From the IMG/VR virus record IMGVR_UViG_3300010230_000023, positions 1-20,421 of that record: 20,421 nucleotides of DNA. The stretch is one strand, 5' to 3'. Position numbers and translations under genes: made by a program. Within the stretch, counting starts at the first letter, position 1. Every line of letters begins with the position of its first letter. Shown piece by piece: positions 2,998 to 16,606 of the stretch. The notes under the pieces are model-generated. The model saw only the letters and a program-made list of their open reading frames with translations. It was not told the origin of the DNA and ran no database searches. The stretch comes from a virus.

Positions 2998-3336
2998 TCA
3001 AACTCCTAACGCTGACGCTATCTGTTGGTGAATGGTCTGGTGAACACCAATCCAATCATAGAAACTGTTCTCTACATTCCAATCTGCTTCCAGCAATTGA
3101 AACGGGTTATCCAGATTCAAAATGCTTGCCAGTGACTCATGCTCTTGGTTATGCACAAACAGCCAATCATCCAAGTTGGAAGGGTCTGCGTCTGTGATGG
3201 GGTATTTGGGATAGAGGATATTTTGGTCAGCAAGAATCTGGTGGAATAGCCTGTGCTGTACGCCGTTCTCAAACAAAAACTCGCCCAGGCTGTCTTTGTT
3301 TCCAAACTCCACGTATGACAAGGCCTCCATGTTCAT
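2998..3336 (-). CDS. hypothetical 112-aa phage protein
   Basis: I chose the ATG that overlaps the glycosyltransferase stop as ATGA, giving 112 aa (MNMEALSYVEF...). A longer reading from further upstream would lie inside the glycosyltransferase gene. The protein is acidic, rich in Leu, His and aromatic residues, and probably helical, with paired HNQEHESLASIL and HQTIHQQIASAL motifs that look like an internal repeat. No catalytic motif or signal peptide is visible. It sits between the glycosyltransferase and the 981-aa gene, and its last codons carry the ribosome-binding site of the latter. The function is unknown. Confidence 0.8.
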   Translation of the reverse strand: MNMEALSYVEFGNKDSLGEFLFENGVQHRLFHQILADQNILYPKYPITDADPSNLDDWLFVHNQEHESLASILNLDNPFQLLEADWNVENSFYDWIGVHQTIHQQIASALGV

Positions 3337-4076
3337 GCAACAACCTCTAAGGGTTTGTGCGTAACGATGTCGTACTTGGCAGACTTGCACCACACACGGA
3401 TGAAGTTGCACACCATGCGCTCTTCACATGTTGGGCACTTCTTGTTGTTGTGTACATTGTTCTTGCCGTGGTTTCGGTAGTAGTACAGCACTTTAGGATA
3501 ACGTGAAATGGGAAACTTTTCTGCAATTTGCATGAACAAATCACCGTCTTCACAGGCGCTGATGAGCTTGTCGTTGTAGCCTTCAATGTGCTTCATAACC
3601 TCACGGCGGTACATTCCCAGATGTTTCCATCCGTGTTGGTGCAACTGGTTCACATCGTAGTTCTTGCTGGCAGAGTAAAGCTCAATGTTGGAGTCAGAAT
3701 CTATCTGAGCAAGGTCTGTGTAGATGAGCATGACTTCAGGGAGCCTGGCAAACTCGTACACCATCTCTTCCAGCGCCCACCTCTCCAGCATGTCATCGTT
3801 GTCAAAGTGGCAGATAAGGTCACCTGTGCTGAGTTCGTAGGCACGTTTCCTGTTTTTGACAATGCCTAAGTTTTTCTCGTTGCGGTAGACCTTGATGCGG
3901 GTATCTGACTCTGCAAGTTTAGAGACAAGCTCATAGGTTCCATCTGTTGAGCAATCGTCAACAAATACAAGTTCCCAATTTATATAGCTCTGTGCTTTTA
4001 CGCTGTCTATTGCGTACTTCACAAACTGGACAGACTGGTAACCTAGCATCAACAGAGAAACCAACGGTCTGTTCAT
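3333..4076 (-). CDS. family 2 glycosyltransferase (GT-A fold)
   Basis: A 247-aa protein with the marks of a GT2 nucleotide-sugar transferase. The N-terminal strand PLVSLLMLGYQSV leads to the nucleotide-binding FVDDCSTDGT (38-47), a DND-D metal site in CHFDNDDM (89-96), and the acceptor-side motif CEDGDLFMQIAE (175-186), where the ED pair is the usual catalytic-base region. There is no membrane segment, so it should be cytosolic. The C-terminus adds a KCPTCEER segment and two more cysteines, possibly a small metal knuckle. Its start overlaps the membrane-protein stop as ATGA, and its own stop overlaps the next start the same way. Donor and acceptor sugars cannot be read from the sequence. Possible targets are virion proteins, host surface polymers or the host receptor. 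Confidence 0.9.
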   Translation of the reverse strand: MNRPLVSLLMLGYQSVQFVKYAIDSVKAQSYINWELVFVDDCSTDGTYELVSKLAESDTRIKVYRNEKNLGIVKNRKRAYELSTGDLICHFDNDDMLERWALEEMVYEFARLPEVMLIYTDLAQIDSDSNIELYSASKNYDVNQLHQHGWKHLGMYRREVMKHIEGYNDKLISACEDGDLFMQIAEKFPISRYPKVLYYYRNHGKNNVHNNKKCPTCEERMVCNFIRVWCKSAKYDIVTHKPLEVVA

Positions 4077-6000: not shown

Positions 6001-6486
6001 TTAAAACTGTTTGGCAAATTTGCCGTGATGTAATGCTCGTGCTTCATCAGCGACAAGCCCTGCTAATTCCAAGTCTTTGAAGTAACCAATAATCTTGGAT
6101 TTACCATTGACGCATAACCTGACAAGCCATGCTTTACTATGATTGTGCCAACTTACTCCTCGAAAGCCTGATGTATTGTTCTTGCACATAGACTTGTTGT
6201 ATTGGTTTTCGCTTCTAGTGGCTTCACGCAAGTTCTCAAGGCGGTTGTCTTGTCTGTCACCATTGATATGGTCAATCTCTTTTGGCAAGTAACCATGCTC
6301 AAGCAAAAAAATCAAGCGGTGAACCTTGTGAGGCTTATTCATCCAAGTGACATGACGATATCCAGTAGGATGGATTGAGCCAACTTCCTTGCCAACAAGA
6401 TATTGCTTGTTAGGGTGCATGACTTTCTTCCAATACAAATGACCATTCTTGTGGTCAAAGTATTCTGCTACTAGGGCTTGATTCAT
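6001..6486 (-). CDS. HNH homing-type endonuclease with AP2-like DNA-binding domain
   Basis: A 161-aa protein. The HNH core is VHRLIFLLEHG...EIDHINGDRQDNRLENLR (about 55-87), with His56, Asp72-His73 and Asn81/Asn85 in the expected places. Residues 104-158 (TSGFRGVSWHNHSKAW, then SKIIGYFKDLELAGLVADEA) match the AP2-like DNA-binding domain common in phage HNH proteins. Such proteins nick or cut DNA and spread as free-standing mobile genes. The start overlaps the fibre stop as ATGA, so it rides on fibre expression. No intron or split gene is apparent next to it. Both halves look intact. Confidence 0.92.
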   Translation of the reverse strand: MNQALVAEYFDHKNGHLYWKKVMHPNKQYLVGKEVGSIHPTGYRHVTWMNKPHKVHRLIFLLEHGYLPKEIDHINGDRQDNRLENLREATRSENQYNKSMCKNNTSGFRGVSWHNHSKAWLVRLCVNGKSKIIGYFKDLELAGLVADEARALHHGKFAKQF

Positions 6487-8027
6487 GGGTGTGTCGCCTT
6501 ATAAGAATCAAATTCTGTTTTGAGTTCTTGGATTGCTTTGACCAAAGAAGGTATCAATTCTTCATGGTTCATATTTAAATATTCAACTCCATCACCGCCA
6601 GCTTTACCAACTGATACAGATGCAGGGAAAATCTCGGCAAACTCTTGTGCAATAAAACCAGCGGCATTTTTCTTGTCTTGCCCTTTGCCTTCTTTCCAAT
6701 CAAAGCGTCTTGGTTTCAATGCCATGATTGCATCAAGACCAGTTTCAATATCTCTCACATTTTCTTTAAGGCGTTGGTCAGAAATTGCAGTAATTACAAT
6801 GTTTGTTGCGTAAATGTTGCCACCATAGCTAACATAAAATCTGTATGCTGAACCAGCCGTTGAATAAACTGCAAGTGCATTTTGTGAGTTGCTTGACGAA
6901 TTTCCTGTTATACCTAATTGACCAACTCCAGATGCCCAATATGCTGGAGAAAATTCGTAGCCGTTTGTTGTGATATTTTGAGATGTTTTCCCCACAAGAA
7001 AGTCGCCAGCAGCGTTGAGGGTAGCCGCCTGAGTAAAGGTAATAGTGTTACCTGCTGTGCCGGAGGGGGCTGTTAGCCAAGAGTGAACACCAGAGTTTTG
7101 TTGATATTCAGAAGCAGCCGCTGTATTTATGTATTTTCTTGCGCCATCAAATATGACGTTATTGGTAAAATATGACGGCCCTGTTGTGCCAGTACCACCC
7201 CACAAAGCAACGTTTGCAGCTACCTGAATTGCTTTGAAACCACTTGCCCAAGCACTCGGAGTAACTCCCAAGCCGAGGTTGCCGGAGGAGTCGATACGGG
7301 CGCGTTCTGCGGCAGTTCCGTTACCAGTCCAAAACAAAATAGACCGAGCATCGCTTGTTCGCGGGATAAGCACCAAGTCGCCGTTACCAGCACCCGACAA
7401 GCCTGAAGTTGAAGCGCCTATATATACCGCTGTTTGACTTACAGGTGCAGCGGAAATATCACCAATCCGAATTGGGACACCGTTTGCATCATTGACAGTC
7501 AATTTTGCACTCGGAGAACTCGTCCCGATACCCAGACCTGTGGAGGTCAGGCGCATTTGTTCTGTGTTGCTTGTCCCAAAGACCATAGGCACTGCTGCCT
7601 GATCGCTCCAAACTTCAAATGCGTCAGAACGAACTTGTAAATATCCTGTGCGAGTTGCTGCGGCATTACCAAAGCGCAACAAGGCATTTGCGTTGTTAAT
7701 GCTATACCCAACACCAGTATTGGTAAGCGTGCTCCCATCAAACGTCAGCGCAGACCCAGTAGTCAATACCTTGGAGCCGTTGAGATACGCAACACCGTTG
7801 GCTGTGCCGCCTGACAGTGTGACGTTGCCAGATACAGTCGTGTCTGTAATGGTCACGCTACCACTGCTGATAGTGACGTTTGTCAGCGTCAGGTTGCCAA
7901 TACTGGTAGTGGTGTTTCCCAGATAGACAGCCGTATTGCCTAGCGTAATCGCAGTAGCAAAGTTACTGTCCAGTTGGGACAGCGGGATGGCAGCGGTTGC
8001 AGTGCCAAAGGTATAGGGAACAGCCAT
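6483..8027 (-). CDS. tail fibre/spike with C-terminal S74 intramolecular chaperone
   Basis: A 514-aa protein. The N-terminal part (1-60) has GNLTLTNVTI repeats shared with the second fibre. The long middle is Gly/Asn/Ser/Thr-rich beta structure with MRLTSTGLGIGTSSPSAKL and ARIDSSGNLGLGVTP motifs, typical of phage fibre shafts. The last 100 residues are a Peptidase_S74 chaperone: ISDQRLKENVRDIE, LKPRRFDWKE, AGFIAQEFAEIFP and NHEELIPSLVKAIQELK. Ser416 and Lys420 are the expected self-cleavage dyad. In this family the chaperone trimerises the fibre and is then cut off. AGG eight bases upstream supports the ATG. It is probably the receptor-binding protein. Confidence 0.92.
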   Translation of the reverse strand: MAVPYTFGTATAAIPLSQLDSNFATAITLGNTAVYLGNTTTSIGNLTLTNVTISSGSVTITDTTVSGNVTLSGGTANGVAYLNGSKVLTTGSALTFDGSTLTNTGVGYSINNANALLRFGNAAATRTGYLQVRSDAFEVWSDQAAVPMVFGTSNTEQMRLTSTGLGIGTSSPSAKLTVNDANGVPIRIGDISAAPVSQTAVYIGASTSGLSGAGNGDLVLIPRTSDARSILFWTGNGTAAERARIDSSGNLGLGVTPSAWASGFKAIQVAANVALWGGTGTTGPSYFTNNVIFDGARKYINTAAASEYQQNSGVHSWLTAPSGTAGNTITFTQAATLNAAGDFLVGKTSQNITTNGYEFSPAYWASGVGQLGITGNSSSNSQNALAVYSTAGSAYRFYVSYGGNIYATNIVITAISDQRLKENVRDIETGLDAIMALKPRRFDWKEGKGQDKKNAAGFIAQEFAEIFPASVSVGKAGGDGVEYLNMNHEELIPSLVKAIQELKTEFDSYKATHP

Positions 8028-14014: not shown

Positions 14015-14515
14015 TTACATTGGGGGAGGAGTTGGTGCGCCGCCTTGCGGAGGCATACCAGGAGTCGGTGCTTGTGACATAGCCTTGCCCTCAGGGGATG
14101 CACCGCCGGCTTGAGGAAGGGTCTGGAGCATCTGGAGAATTTCAGATTGCTGAAGTTCGTTTGTTTTGTTCTTACGTGGCCCCATCACACCAGTGAGTGA
14201 GCGAATAGCGGCAAGAGCCTTCTGGCCTTCATCGCTTTCAGAACCAAGAGCAGGGAGAGATTGTTCAATCAAGTCCATCGCCATGCCCAAGTTAATCATG
14301 GCGGCTTCTTTGCTGCCCATCTTGGGTTCGGGAGTAGACATGGGAGATGCCATCGGGGGAGTTTCGGCGTCTGACATTGCGCCTGGGCCACCAGGTGTTG
14401 CGCCTGGCATACCGCCTGGGGTGTTACTTGGCATAGAAATACCGGAAGGAGCGCCACCACCACCTGAACGGGGGTTACGCATCAACTCCATCAGTTTGTC
14501 TTGCGGAACAGCCAT
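14015..14515 (-). CDS. Pro/Gly/Met-rich phage head-region protein
   Basis: A 166-aa protein. The chosen ATG (MAVPQDKLMELMRN) has a perfect AAGGAG five bases upstream; an upstream GTG/TTG-type extension would run into the hairpin leader. Low-complexity Gly/Pro/Met/Ser text (about 15-65) and a similar C-terminal tail (about 133-166) flank a helical core (about 66-132) with AAMINLGMAMDLIEQSLPAL and SEILQMLQTLPQ. It lies between portal and scaffold. It could be a minor head protein or a chaperone for portal assembly, but I recognise no family. Confidence 0.72.
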   Translation of the reverse strand: MAVPQDKLMELMRNPRSGGGGAPSGISMPSNTPGGMPGATPGGPGAMSDAETPPMASPMSTPEPKMGSKEAAMINLGMAMDLIEQSLPALGSESDEGQKALAAIRSLTGVMGPRKNKTNELQQSEILQMLQTLPQAGGASPEGKAMSQAPTPGMPPQGGAPTPPPM

Positions 14516-14616
14516 AAAAACTCCTTTTGTGTGTTTGTAACCACTTACAAACACCTTGTCAACAGGTGAAGGGCATTTTAATTCAGCCCTCCAAAGAATT
14601 TTAACGGTCAAACCGC

Positions 14617-14644
14617 AATTAAACGGGGTTGCCCCCGTCTAATT
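14617..14644 (-). promoter_or_regulatory. 12-bp RNA hairpin with GCAA tetraloop
   Basis: On the transcribed strand, AATTAGACGGGG-GCAA-CCCCGTTTAATT pairs over 12 positions, with one G-U wobble that is a mismatch on the opposite strand. The structure is therefore built for leftward RNA. The loop is a GNRA tetraloop. It includes the stop codon of the second 12-codon ORF. No U tract follows, so it is less likely to be a simple terminator than an mRNA-stabilising or processing element. Confidence 0.6.
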
Positions 14645-14681
14645 ACTTGCGGCTCTTACGACCTTTACGAGCTTTACGCAT
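14643..14681 (-). CDS. 12-aa Lys/Arg-rich micro-ORF (second of a pair)
   Basis: It encodes MRKARKGRKSRK, with eight basic residues in 12. GGAG lies exactly six bases before this ATG. An in-frame ATG four codons further upstream (14693) would give 16 aa but has a poorer ribosome site. Six of 12 residues match the neighbouring micro-ORF and most others are conservative. It lies between the first micro-ORF and the GNRA hairpin. A peptide this basic could bind nucleic acid or the portal, but no function is known. Confidence 0.5.
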   Translation of the reverse strand: MRKARKGRKSRK

Positions 14682-14751
14682 AGTCTTCTCCATGGTTAGA
14701 AGGCGGCGACCTTTTGACGGGAAGGAAGCCACACCCGATTCCTGGGGGGAA

Positions 14752-14790
14752 TTACCGACGAGTCTTACGACCGCGCTTTGATTTGTACAT
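14752..14790 (-). CDS. 12-aa Lys/Arg-rich micro-ORF (first of a pair)
   Basis: It encodes MYKSKRGRKTRR, with seven basic residues in 12. GGAG lies six bases upstream of the ATG, the same spacing as in its twin at 14643-14681. It begins 14 bases after the stop of the 51-aa gene. The length, charge and spacing shared with the twin argue against chance, but there is no direct evidence of translation. Confidence 0.5.
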   Translation of the reverse strand: MYKSKRGRKTRR

Positions 14791-14804: not shown

Positions 14805-14960
14805 TTACTTACGAGCATAGTCCCGTTGACTGCGCCCACCTGAGGTTTTATACCCTGTTTGACGGTATGTCAAGTTCGGTGTTTGCTCACCGCGAGAAAG
14901 TTCTTTTGTGCTGACTTTTGGCTGGTCAGCTTTGGGTGTTGCATTTTTGACGTTTGCCAT
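14805..14960 (-). CDS. 51-aa basic protein downstream of portal
   Basis: A 51-aa reading frame starting MANVKNATPKADQPKVSTKE and ending SQRDYARK. The start overlaps the portal stop as TGATG, with AGG seven bases before this ATG; an ATG one codon earlier would overlap as ATGA. The product is basic (11 Lys/Arg, four acidic residues) and probably disordered. The gene fills a gap otherwise left in a dense operon, which supports it. No family is recognised. Confidence 0.65.
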   Translation of the reverse strand: MANVKNATPKADQPKVSTKELSRGEQTPNLTYRQTGYKTSGGRSQRDYARK

Positions 14961-16606
14961 CATCCCACCTGTTTAAGATCGGGTTTCCCCTTAGGTTTTT
15001 CCTGTGCAGCTTGCTTCTGTTCAGCTTGTTGCGCTTGTTGTTTTTCTTGCTTATCTTCCATCTTTTTCAGACGGTCTTTGAGCAATTGTTTCATAGGCGG
15101 CTCAAGCAAGTCAAGCAATGATTCTTTGTCAATAACCTGGGCTTTAAACAAGTTAAATGCAAGCTGGCGAAGGTCTTCCATGAAGATAGGCGAGTTAGAG
15201 TGAGCGTCCACTTTCACCACATAATCTTTGGTAAATTGCTCAGCAATGAACTTGTTTTTGTTGATGTCAGTGAAGTGCGTGTTGTCGTATATTTGCATCG
15301 CTTTCAAGTACAGCGTTGCCAACTTTTCTAAGCTGTCTTCAATGACCAGCGCACGTTTCTTGGCCCGTGATGAACCCAAGCGAGCCAGTTGTGAAGCGTG
15401 ACCAGAAGAGCGAACACCAGACTCGCCCTTGCCCTGCAACACAGAGACAATGCCGGATGCCTCTTCAAACATGGAGTCAATCTCACCAATCTCGCGGAAC
15501 AAATCTGGTGGGATAGTTGGAGCCAGTTTTTCAACCTTGGCGTTGGGCATGTCGGTTGCAAGCAAGCCACCAGCACGATTGAGTGCAAAGTTCTTCTCGT
15601 CAAGAATGCCGGTAAAGCCAATCAGTGCGGTAGGGGGAGAAACTTGTTTGCTGAGCAGATCAAGAATCTCAGACATGCGTTTGTTGCGTAGCTGCTGGAG
15701 ATACACCAGACGCTGCACTTCAGAGCCGCCCCAGAAGTAATCGTACAGCGGGTTAGGCGCAATCTGCACAAAAGGCAATTCGCCTTTGATGAAAACAGAC
15801 TCGCCTGGTCGGTCATAGATGATAACGTCAGGGTCTGCTTTGGTGACGCACTGATAGTCTTGGGTGTCATCGTTCCACACCCACAGCTCTGTCATCTCTA
15901 CAGTGTCTTCAGACACGATGGCTTTGTAGCGGTTGCCACCAGACAGATCAAGGTTGACGTTACCGTACATGGTGGGGTTGGACTGCGACAAGATGATGCG
16001 CTCAATACCGTTGGCAACGGAAGTGCGTTCATGTTGCGTAGAAGTAACACGCTTGACGATAGCGTCCCGCTTGGGGTGAGAGTACAGACGGGCGTACAGC
16101 TCAGACTTGGTGATGTAATAGGTATGGACTATCGCCTCTTGCCTGTCCATGTAAGGCGTATCTTCTCGCAATACGCCAATGCAAGAAGGCTCAACAAGGT
16201 AGGGGTGCATACCGTTGTTGATGACCAGTTTGACAAAGCAAGAGTTGTAGCACAGTGCCCAGGTGGTTGCGGCAGAGAACACTTGGTCAGCGTTGGAGTT
16301 CAGCCACTCATCGTTAAGCGCACGGGTGAGCGTGGGCACTTTTGCGTTCTCGGCTTCGTTGACAGCCGCACCCAGTTGGATGCTGAAGCGAGTTGTCTCT
16401 GCTGAATAGAGAAACGAGGTGAGCTGGTCAATGTGCGGAAAGATTTTGTTGTACAGCGCCGGAGGTTCATCCGGCCCGTTGCCAAACAAATAGAAGCTAC
16501 GCAAAGAACTGTAATCTACCTTGCGTTCTTCGCGGCTGACCAGGCATTTCTGAATCAGGTCAAGGTAGAACTCTTCACGGTCTTGGTCGCCAGTGGGTAT
16601 TCTCAT
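14960..16606 (-). CDS. portal protein
   Basis: A 548-aa protein of usual podophage portal length, forming the dodecameric DNA channel at one head vertex. It has a helical N-terminus with RSFYLFGNGPDEPPALYN and FPHIDQLTSFLYSAE. A mixed clip/wing region follows (IVHTYYITKSELYARLY, VEMTELWVWNDDTQDYQC, YDRPGESVFIKGELPFV). A helical stem region follows (YLQQLRNKRMSEILDLLSKQ). A Gly/Ser-rich GESGVRSSGHASQLARL segment comes before the C-terminal helices. The Lys/Gln-rich tail (about 500-548) resembles crown or barrel regions. Start and stop overlap the neighbours. Its position after the terminase and before scaffold and coat supports the call. Confidence 0.85.
   Translation of the reverse strand: MRIPTGDQDREEFYLDLIQKCLVSREERKVDYSSLRSFYLFGNGPDEPPALYNKIFPHIDQLTSFLYSAETTRFSIQLGAAVNEAENAKVPTLTRALNDEWLNSNADQVFSAATTWALCYNSCFVKLVINNGMHPYLVEPSCIGVLREDTPYMDRQEAIVHTYYITKSELYARLYSHPKRDAIVKRVTSTQHERTSVANGIERIILSQSNPTMYGNVNLDLSGGNRYKAIVSEDTVEMTELWVWNDDTQDYQCVTKADPDVIIYDRPGESVFIKGELPFVQIAPNPLYDYFWGGSEVQRLVYLQQLRNKRMSEILDLLSKQVSPPTALIGFTGILDEKNFALNRAGGLLATDMPNAKVEKLAPTIPPDLFREIGEIDSMFEEASGIVSVLQGKGESGVRSSGHASQLARLGSSRAKKRALVIEDSLEKLATLYLKAMQIYDNTHFTDINKNKFIAEQFTKDYVVKVDAHSNSPIFMEDLRQLAFNLFKAQVIDKESLLDLLEPPMKQLLKDRLKKMEDKQEKQQAQQAEQKQAAQEKPKGKPDLKQVG

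Follow-up and report, generated by a model that had tools for sequence, protein, structure and literature searches.

Tandem 12-codon Lys/Arg micro-ORFs and a covarying RNA pseudoknot in the putative head-morphogenesis operon of uncultivated phages

The DNA analysed here (the window) is the 20.4-kb contig of an uncultivated virus, IMG/VR record IMGVR_UViG_3300010230_000023, in which all the head genes lie on the minus strand. Among their products are a protein of 164 aa (17097-16603), the large subunit of the terminase (19399-17636) and the portal protein (14960-16606), which matches the Pfam family SU10_portal (PF23899, E 8e-9; 34.9 bits against a cut-off of 30) as well as a PHROG portal family and is thus of the SU10/P22 type. 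The portal gene is followed by the gene for a basic 51-aa protein (14805-14960) with the C-terminus GGRSQRDYARK, which is kept in relatives and had no match in PHROG and Pfam searches. On the other side of the gap studied in this work there is a gene for a 166-aa protein (14015-14515), a conserved neighbour that we used as an anchor, and after it come genes for a product of 60 aa, for a scaffold-like protein of 176 aa and, at 13215-12205, for the major capsid protein.

Several genes further along the same strand were also recorded. A protein of 981 aa (51-2996) contains long low-complexity runs of Pro-Ser and Pro-Thr as well as tandem copies of QPSPVL, a likely case of repeat expansion, and is likely the tail or fibre protein of the far end. 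Among the tail genes we found a family-2 glycosyltransferase (3333-4076), which may modify the virion or the host surface, a protein combining an HNH_3 endonuclease with an AP2-like domain (6001-6486), which is a candidate free-standing homing endonuclease, and a tail protein (6483-8027) whose C-terminal part is a Peptidase_S74 intramolecular chaperone domain.

The gap contains two ORFs of 12 codons made mostly of Lys and Arg, as the initial annotation had noticed: micro1 (MYKSKRGRKTRR, 14752-14790) and micro2 (MRKARKGRKSRK, 14643-14681), both on the minus strand. They are identical at 6 of 12 positions (M, K, G, R, K and R), and each has a GGAG at a spacing of exactly 6 nt from its ATG (14800-14797 for micro1 and 14691-14688 for micro2). 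The 51-codon gene precedes them, as had been described; the GNRA hairpin that was placed after them in fact overlaps the stop codon of micro2. Two in-frame starts exist upstream of micro2, an ATG at 14693 (16 aa) and a GTG at 14732 (29 aa), and the position of the SD favours the one at 14681. No other ORF on either strand of the window has 10-16 aa, at least 50% Lys plus Arg and an SD, and when the window was shuffled 100 times with its dinucleotides preserved and each strand was counted, such ORFs appeared at 0.01 per window against the 2 observed. A duplication had also been proposed for the pair. The C-terminally aligned identity of the two peptides is 0.41, compared with 0.24 for shuffled peptides (maximum of 1000 shuffles, 0.285), and this makes a common origin plausible.

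A search of viral contigs and genome contigs with the portal as query gave approximately 170 relatives at 46-97% portal identity. The sequence extends far enough downstream in 154 of them, and 144 of these carry in this gap one to three ATG micro-ORFs of about 10-15 codons, mostly Lys and Arg, so that the exact length of 12 codons stressed in the initial annotation is true of the pair in the window and is not a rule. An SD match of at least 4 nt precedes nearly all of them, the commonest spacing being 6 nt. Family 1, to which micro1 belongs and whose members (..KRGRKTRR) occur in most relatives, has the consensus MYGRKMKRGRKTRR (57 distinct peptides), and family 2 has the consensus MARKARKGRKARK or MRKARKGRKSRK (28 distinct peptides). 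A third and rarer family is represented by MARKSRKGRKSCK; genes of this type were seen in eight loci, always with a Cys before the last Lys, and they sit upstream of micro1 or, in one locus (L079), replace it. Micro-genes persist in far relatives, such as MYRKSRRKRR at 60% portal identity, MARKARKASRKAKRK at 50% and MARKARKARKSRRKSKR at 46%. The micro1 frame is also kept in two loci (L140 and L137) in which GTG replaces ATG as the start, and in a further locus (L166) the position of micro1 after the portal gene is taken by a basic micro-ORF, MYGKMPKPMKKPPMRDGKRS, which is divergent and has a good SD. In two records, MW202825 (7779-8039) and MW202753 (4740-5038), antisense ORFs are annotated across the gap and are probably annotation errors. 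Taken together, the comparisons indicate that two or three neighbouring Lys/Arg micro-genes are carried by many uncultivated freshwater phages. For the hosts of the group, metagenome-assembled genome bins give a weak hint of freshwater Betaproteobacteria.

The distribution of these ORFs was explored beyond the portal relatives. When 2.9 million viral contigs were scanned with the exact DNA pattern for MARKxRKGRKxRK followed by a stop, at least 118 matches were found again in the fetched loci, and all the listed ones adjoin the portal or the 166-aa gene. A looser SD-ATG-..RKxRK-TAA pattern for viral contigs gave, among the matches listed and over all the loci collected, 170 in-frame ORFs in this context versus 4 unrelated ones, and the idea that such micro-genes are a general feature of phages was therefore rejected. 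They look confined to this phage group. A search of the phage collection with the portal returned only two records, both of uncultured phages and thus no cultured relative; the capsid and terminase have relatives in Mx8 and a Hydrogenobaculum phage, which are too distant for comparison. Within the group the micro-genes are not universal. At least 9 of the 247 loci with both flanking genes have none in the gap, which implies that the function is dispensable or replaced in those lineages. Eight loci without them have portal identities of 70-78%, and three such loci (L057, L073 and L171) have also lost the A-loop hairpin and the pseudoknot described below, which leaves the 51-aa gene beside the promoter-like box; lineages of this type are natural deletion controls.

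The initial annotation suggested that the ORFs are translated and named frameshifts, stops or a loss of amino-acid conservation in related phages as evidence to the contrary. In most of the related gaps we found the opposite, with the reading frame, its start and stop codons, the SD and the amino acids all retained, and third codon positions hold most of the differences between distinct alleles (permutation p from 0.0001 to 0.04, depending on family and length). The pN/pS of the micro-ORFs ranged from 0.24 to 0.52. The peptides drift in sequence except for the charge and a GRKxRx C-terminus: almost every distinct peptide (12-14 aa) has a net charge of +7 or +8, hydrophobic residues are practically absent, and acidic ones occur only in N-terminally extended readings. 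The Arg codons CGT and CGC make up 99% of those in micro2, the strongest bias among the genes examined, and 80% in micro1, 74% in the major capsid gene, 58% in the portal gene, 51% in the terminase gene and 40-46% in tail genes, in a comparison based on few sites from related sequences and in which RNA constraint may explain part of the bias. The stop is TAA in 120 of 121 micro2 records, and in this and in its codon bias micro2 resembles very highly expressed genes. Translation of the micro-ORFs and selection on the predicted peptides are well supported by these signatures, which point firmly to two, sometimes three, genuine micro-genes in the putative head-morphogenesis operon of an uncultivated phage group with SU10/P22-type portals.

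Between micro1 and micro2 there is an H-type RNA pseudoknot (14705-14737, minus strand) that the initial annotation had not mentioned. In the window, stem S1 pairs CGGG (14737-14734) with CCCG (14721-14718), and stem S2 pairs GGCTTCCT (14730-14723) with AGGTCGCC (14712-14705), with a 2x2 mismatch in the middle of the stem in the clade of the window; the 3' end of the pseudoknot lies 13 nt 5' of the micro2 SD, and the pseudoknot does not pair with that SD. Elsewhere S1 appears as AGGG/CCCT, ACGG/CCGT, CCGG/CCGG or AAGGT/ACCTT, and the variants of S2 include GGCTGCTT/AAGTGGCC, GGTTTCTC/GAGAAACC and CCTGCTC/GAGTAGG; loop 1 is usually TGT or TAT and loop 3 is A-rich. Across 49 distinct sequences, pairing holds in 92.1% of cells. 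Both partners are changed in 56 cells, whereas shuffling gave 14.2 and sliding the partners gave 0-7, and 8 of the 12 pairs show two-sided changes. Two pairs of S2 are mostly G-U; RNA from the opposite strand would have A-C mismatches in their place, and this indicates that it is the coding-strand RNA that folds.

The presence of the pseudoknot was scored with a covariance model of S2 (R1), as a looser automatic descriptor gave false stems. The model matches the window at 14738-14693 (minus strand, 42.4 bits), and over 590 kb it gave 42 matches, one per locus, all in loci that carry micro2. The pseudoknot was thus detected in 42 of 49 loci with micro2 and in 0 of 24 without it (Fisher p 2e-13, relatedness ignored); since the relatives are mostly metagenome contigs of common ancestry, this value and those from the shuffles overstate independence. 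Several of the micro2 loci missed by R1 show a variant pseudoknot by eye (L213 and L288), and one locus (L060) has micro2 without a pseudoknot. Rfam gave no match at the gathering threshold in 16 relatives and none in the window at E values up to 10, which ruled out a known RNA family, so that the pseudoknot appears to be a new one.

The second structure is a hairpin of 13 pairs with a GNRA (GCAA) loop (14616-14645, minus strand), whose stem starts inside the stop codon of micro2. Over 61 distinct relatives the hairpin at this place has a mean z of -2.56, its loop is often GNRA, and in 46 of the 61 its first pair involves base 1 or 2 of the stop codon. A conserved hairpin directly 3' of micro1 was not supported (mean z -0.47). 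From these comparisons micro2 can be described as embedded in a dedicated RNA module, with a predicted pseudoknot 5' of its SD and a predicted GNRA hairpin over its stop codon. A third hairpin, with the arms TGGAGGGC and GCCCTTCA around the A-rich loop TGAATTAAAAT (14567-14593, minus strand), has equivalents in relatives, with A-rich loops of 11-15 nt and widely varying stems, just 5' of a TTGACA box; in L166 a T-tract terminator takes its place. The TTGACA-like box of the window (14562-14557) and a perfect inverted repeat of 10 bp, GTGTTTGTAA-gtgg-TTACAAACAC (14554-14531), together lie 5' of the 166-aa gene (14531-14562, minus strand). A similar TTGACA is present in relatives, and similar repeats occur in close relatives and different ones in others; box and repeat are a candidate promoter/operator of the scaffold and capsid genes. 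No T-tract intrinsic terminator was found on the coding strand between 13900 and 15100, where neither hairpin precedes a T tract, and an intrinsic terminator after micro2 was rejected for this reason.

What the peptides might do we infer from their composition and surroundings. In our preferred reading, to which we assign a probability of roughly 45%, they are products of the head operon that are made in abundance, bind nucleic acid and serve packaging in the manner of the microvirus J/VP8 proteins, and translation of micro2 is under a pseudoknot operator probably read by the peptide. The peptides would be produced in large amounts late in infection, would bind nucleic acid without folding and would neutralise or organise the phage DNA while the head is being packaged. 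One step further, the pseudoknot would act as translational operator of micro2, the basic peptide itself probably being its reader; once the DNA takes up no more of the free peptide, synthesis from micro2 would stop, as happens with T4 gp32 on the pseudoknot of its own mRNA. That the micro2 peptide binds its own pseudoknot is a guess. A packaging or condensation role fits the location between the portal and capsid genes, the constant charge and the codon bias, and it is supported by the conservation in 144 of 154 relatives, the selection on amino acids and the nearly universal SD of at least 4 nt. The operator is supported by the covariation, the strict linkage to micro2 and the G-U pairs, which fit a coding-strand RNA. 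However, dsDNA packaging in tailed phages normally relies on small cations and a motor driven by ATP, at least 9 of the 247 loci do without any micro-gene, and the micro2 gene without a pseudoknot in L060 weakens the gating.

The J/VP8 proteins of microviruses are Arg/Lys-rich and important for DNA packaging (PMC11281519), and the micro peptides resemble them in being short, rich in Arg and Lys, without acidic residues and encoded among structural genes. The likeness is weakened by their length of 12-14 residues, which is half or less of that of J, and by their RR or RK ends, which lack the capsid-binding C-terminus of J. VP8 of SpV4 is ordered over aa 9-38, longer than the micro peptides (10-15 aa), and the J/VP8 C-terminus is buried in a mostly hydrophobic capsid pocket whereas the micro peptides end in RR, RK or KR. 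Furthermore, J/VP8 is encoded by a single gene in ssDNA phages, unlike the tandem micro-genes of a dsDNA phage. To our knowledge, no pseudoknot leader has been described for J/VP8. The micro peptides are thus not classed as J, as both the length and the C-terminal anchor differ. Another very small polycationic virion peptide, mu of the adenovirus core, condenses dsDNA, but it is a proteolysis product of a precursor in an unrelated eukaryotic virus.

With respect to the operator, a pseudoknot 5' of gene 32 in T4 and RB69 nucleates the binding of the nucleic-acid-binding product of that gene (PMC535899). The module resembles it in that the SD of a gene whose product presumably binds nucleic acid is preceded by an H-type pseudoknot. 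However, the gene 32 operator has UUAAA/UAAA repeats between the pseudoknot and the AUG, of which the spacer of the window (GCCTTCTAACCATGGAGAAGACT) has none, its pseudoknot differs in sequence, is of about 28 nt and lies further upstream (PMC535899), and gp32 is a folded cooperative SSB, unlike peptides of 12-14 aa. Because there are no UUAAA repeats and any autoregulation is only putative here, the micro2 pseudoknot is not classed as a gene 32 operator. Any suggestion that the module works like J or gene 32 is drawn from anatomy. The Glutamine-II riboswitch, or Downstream-peptide RNA, is also a small pseudoknotted RNA before a short ORF, but the micro2 pseudoknot has no match in Rfam.

The main rival of the packaging reading, which we consider clearly less probable than it, is an RNA-regulatory circuit for the capsid genes, in which the peptides would be minimal arginine-rich motifs acting on the RNA elements of the gap and tuning termination or translation of the downstream scaffold and capsid genes. 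Three structured RNA elements lie within approximately 180 nt of the micro-genes, GNRA loops occur at the micro2 stop, and in L057 and L073 both the A-loop hairpin and the pseudoknot are missing together with the micro-genes. However, these elements are contiguous and a single deletion takes them all, and codon usage more biased than in the capsid gene suggests that the peptides are made in stoichiometric amounts and not in those of a regulator. The known counterpart would be lambda N, a protein of about 107 aa that acts early, with an arginine-rich motif on boxB and further interaction regions, and an Arg-rich peptide alongside a GNRA or GNRA-like hairpin is found in both systems. N-type antiterminators require additional domains for binding Nus factors and RNA polymerase, for which peptides of 12-14 aa are too short; moreover, the micro-genes belong to a late operon and their hairpin overlaps a stop codon. 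A pure leader device, in which the act of translating micro1 and micro2, and not the peptides, sets the folding of the pseudoknot and hairpins and thereby the expression of the next genes, is less likely still. A short ORF with a structured RNA is the usual architecture of attenuators and micro1 stops just 5' of the pseudoknot, but the Arg codons are the preferred and not the rare ones, amino acids are conserved in both ORFs while synonymous sites change freely, the pseudoknot could control at most one more ORF of 12 codons, and in ten loci micro1 is kept where pseudoknot and micro2 are missing. The same codon usage contradicts sequestration of a rare-codon tRNA in the style of the lambda bar minigenes. 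A T4 gene 60-like bypass from micro1 to micro2, brought to mind by the succession of basic ORF, stop and structure, was discarded because relatives have a separate SD and ATG for micro2.

It is about as unlikely that the peptides are assembly cofactors, sitting on an acidic surface of the portal, scaffold or terminase and aiding portal incorporation or motor docking. The fixed position between the portal and the scaffold and capsid genes would agree with this, but the free drift of the sequence apart from the charge and the C-terminus, the two or three similar peptides per genome, which are unexpected for a specific cofactor, and the members without any peptide argue against it. A peptide directed at the host late in infection, inhibiting an RNA- or DNA-binding process or acting on membranes, seems improbable: ribosomes or membranes are possible targets of short cationic peptides, but the ones encoded here have practically no hydrophobic residues for membrane action and their genes lie in the structural operon and not in an early region. 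Finally, chance ORFs within a structured intergenic region have in their favour only that the ORFs are very short, and we give this explanation virtually no weight in view of the conservation, the shuffles, the exclusive context and the codon bias, which refute it.

The micro-genes are absent from annotation because the length limits usual in gene calling and in surveys of small proteins exceed 12 codons; a range of 15-70 codons was used in one recent survey (PMC11188072). It is possible, if rather doubtful, that they represent an unrecognised class of dsDNA-phage genes, tandem pure polycations of 12-14 codons that would be highly expressed, condense or package the genome and be governed by an autoregulatory pseudoknot read by the peptide, all in about 120 nt, and that few known protein genes with conservation would match in smallness. 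Testing conservation through frame, SD, codon bias and exclusive context, as was done here, offers a template for finding other genes of fewer than 20 codons. Should the peptides indeed be polycations of the virion, this would be a strategy like that of J or the protamines in a tailed dsDNA phage, and the use of protein counter-ions in motor-driven packaging would become directly testable. In the same way, pseudoknot and 12-residue basic peptide, if they are partners, would form a minimal natural peptide-RNA regulatory pair, and a gene together with its riboregulator would fit in about 120 nt that are invisible to annotation.
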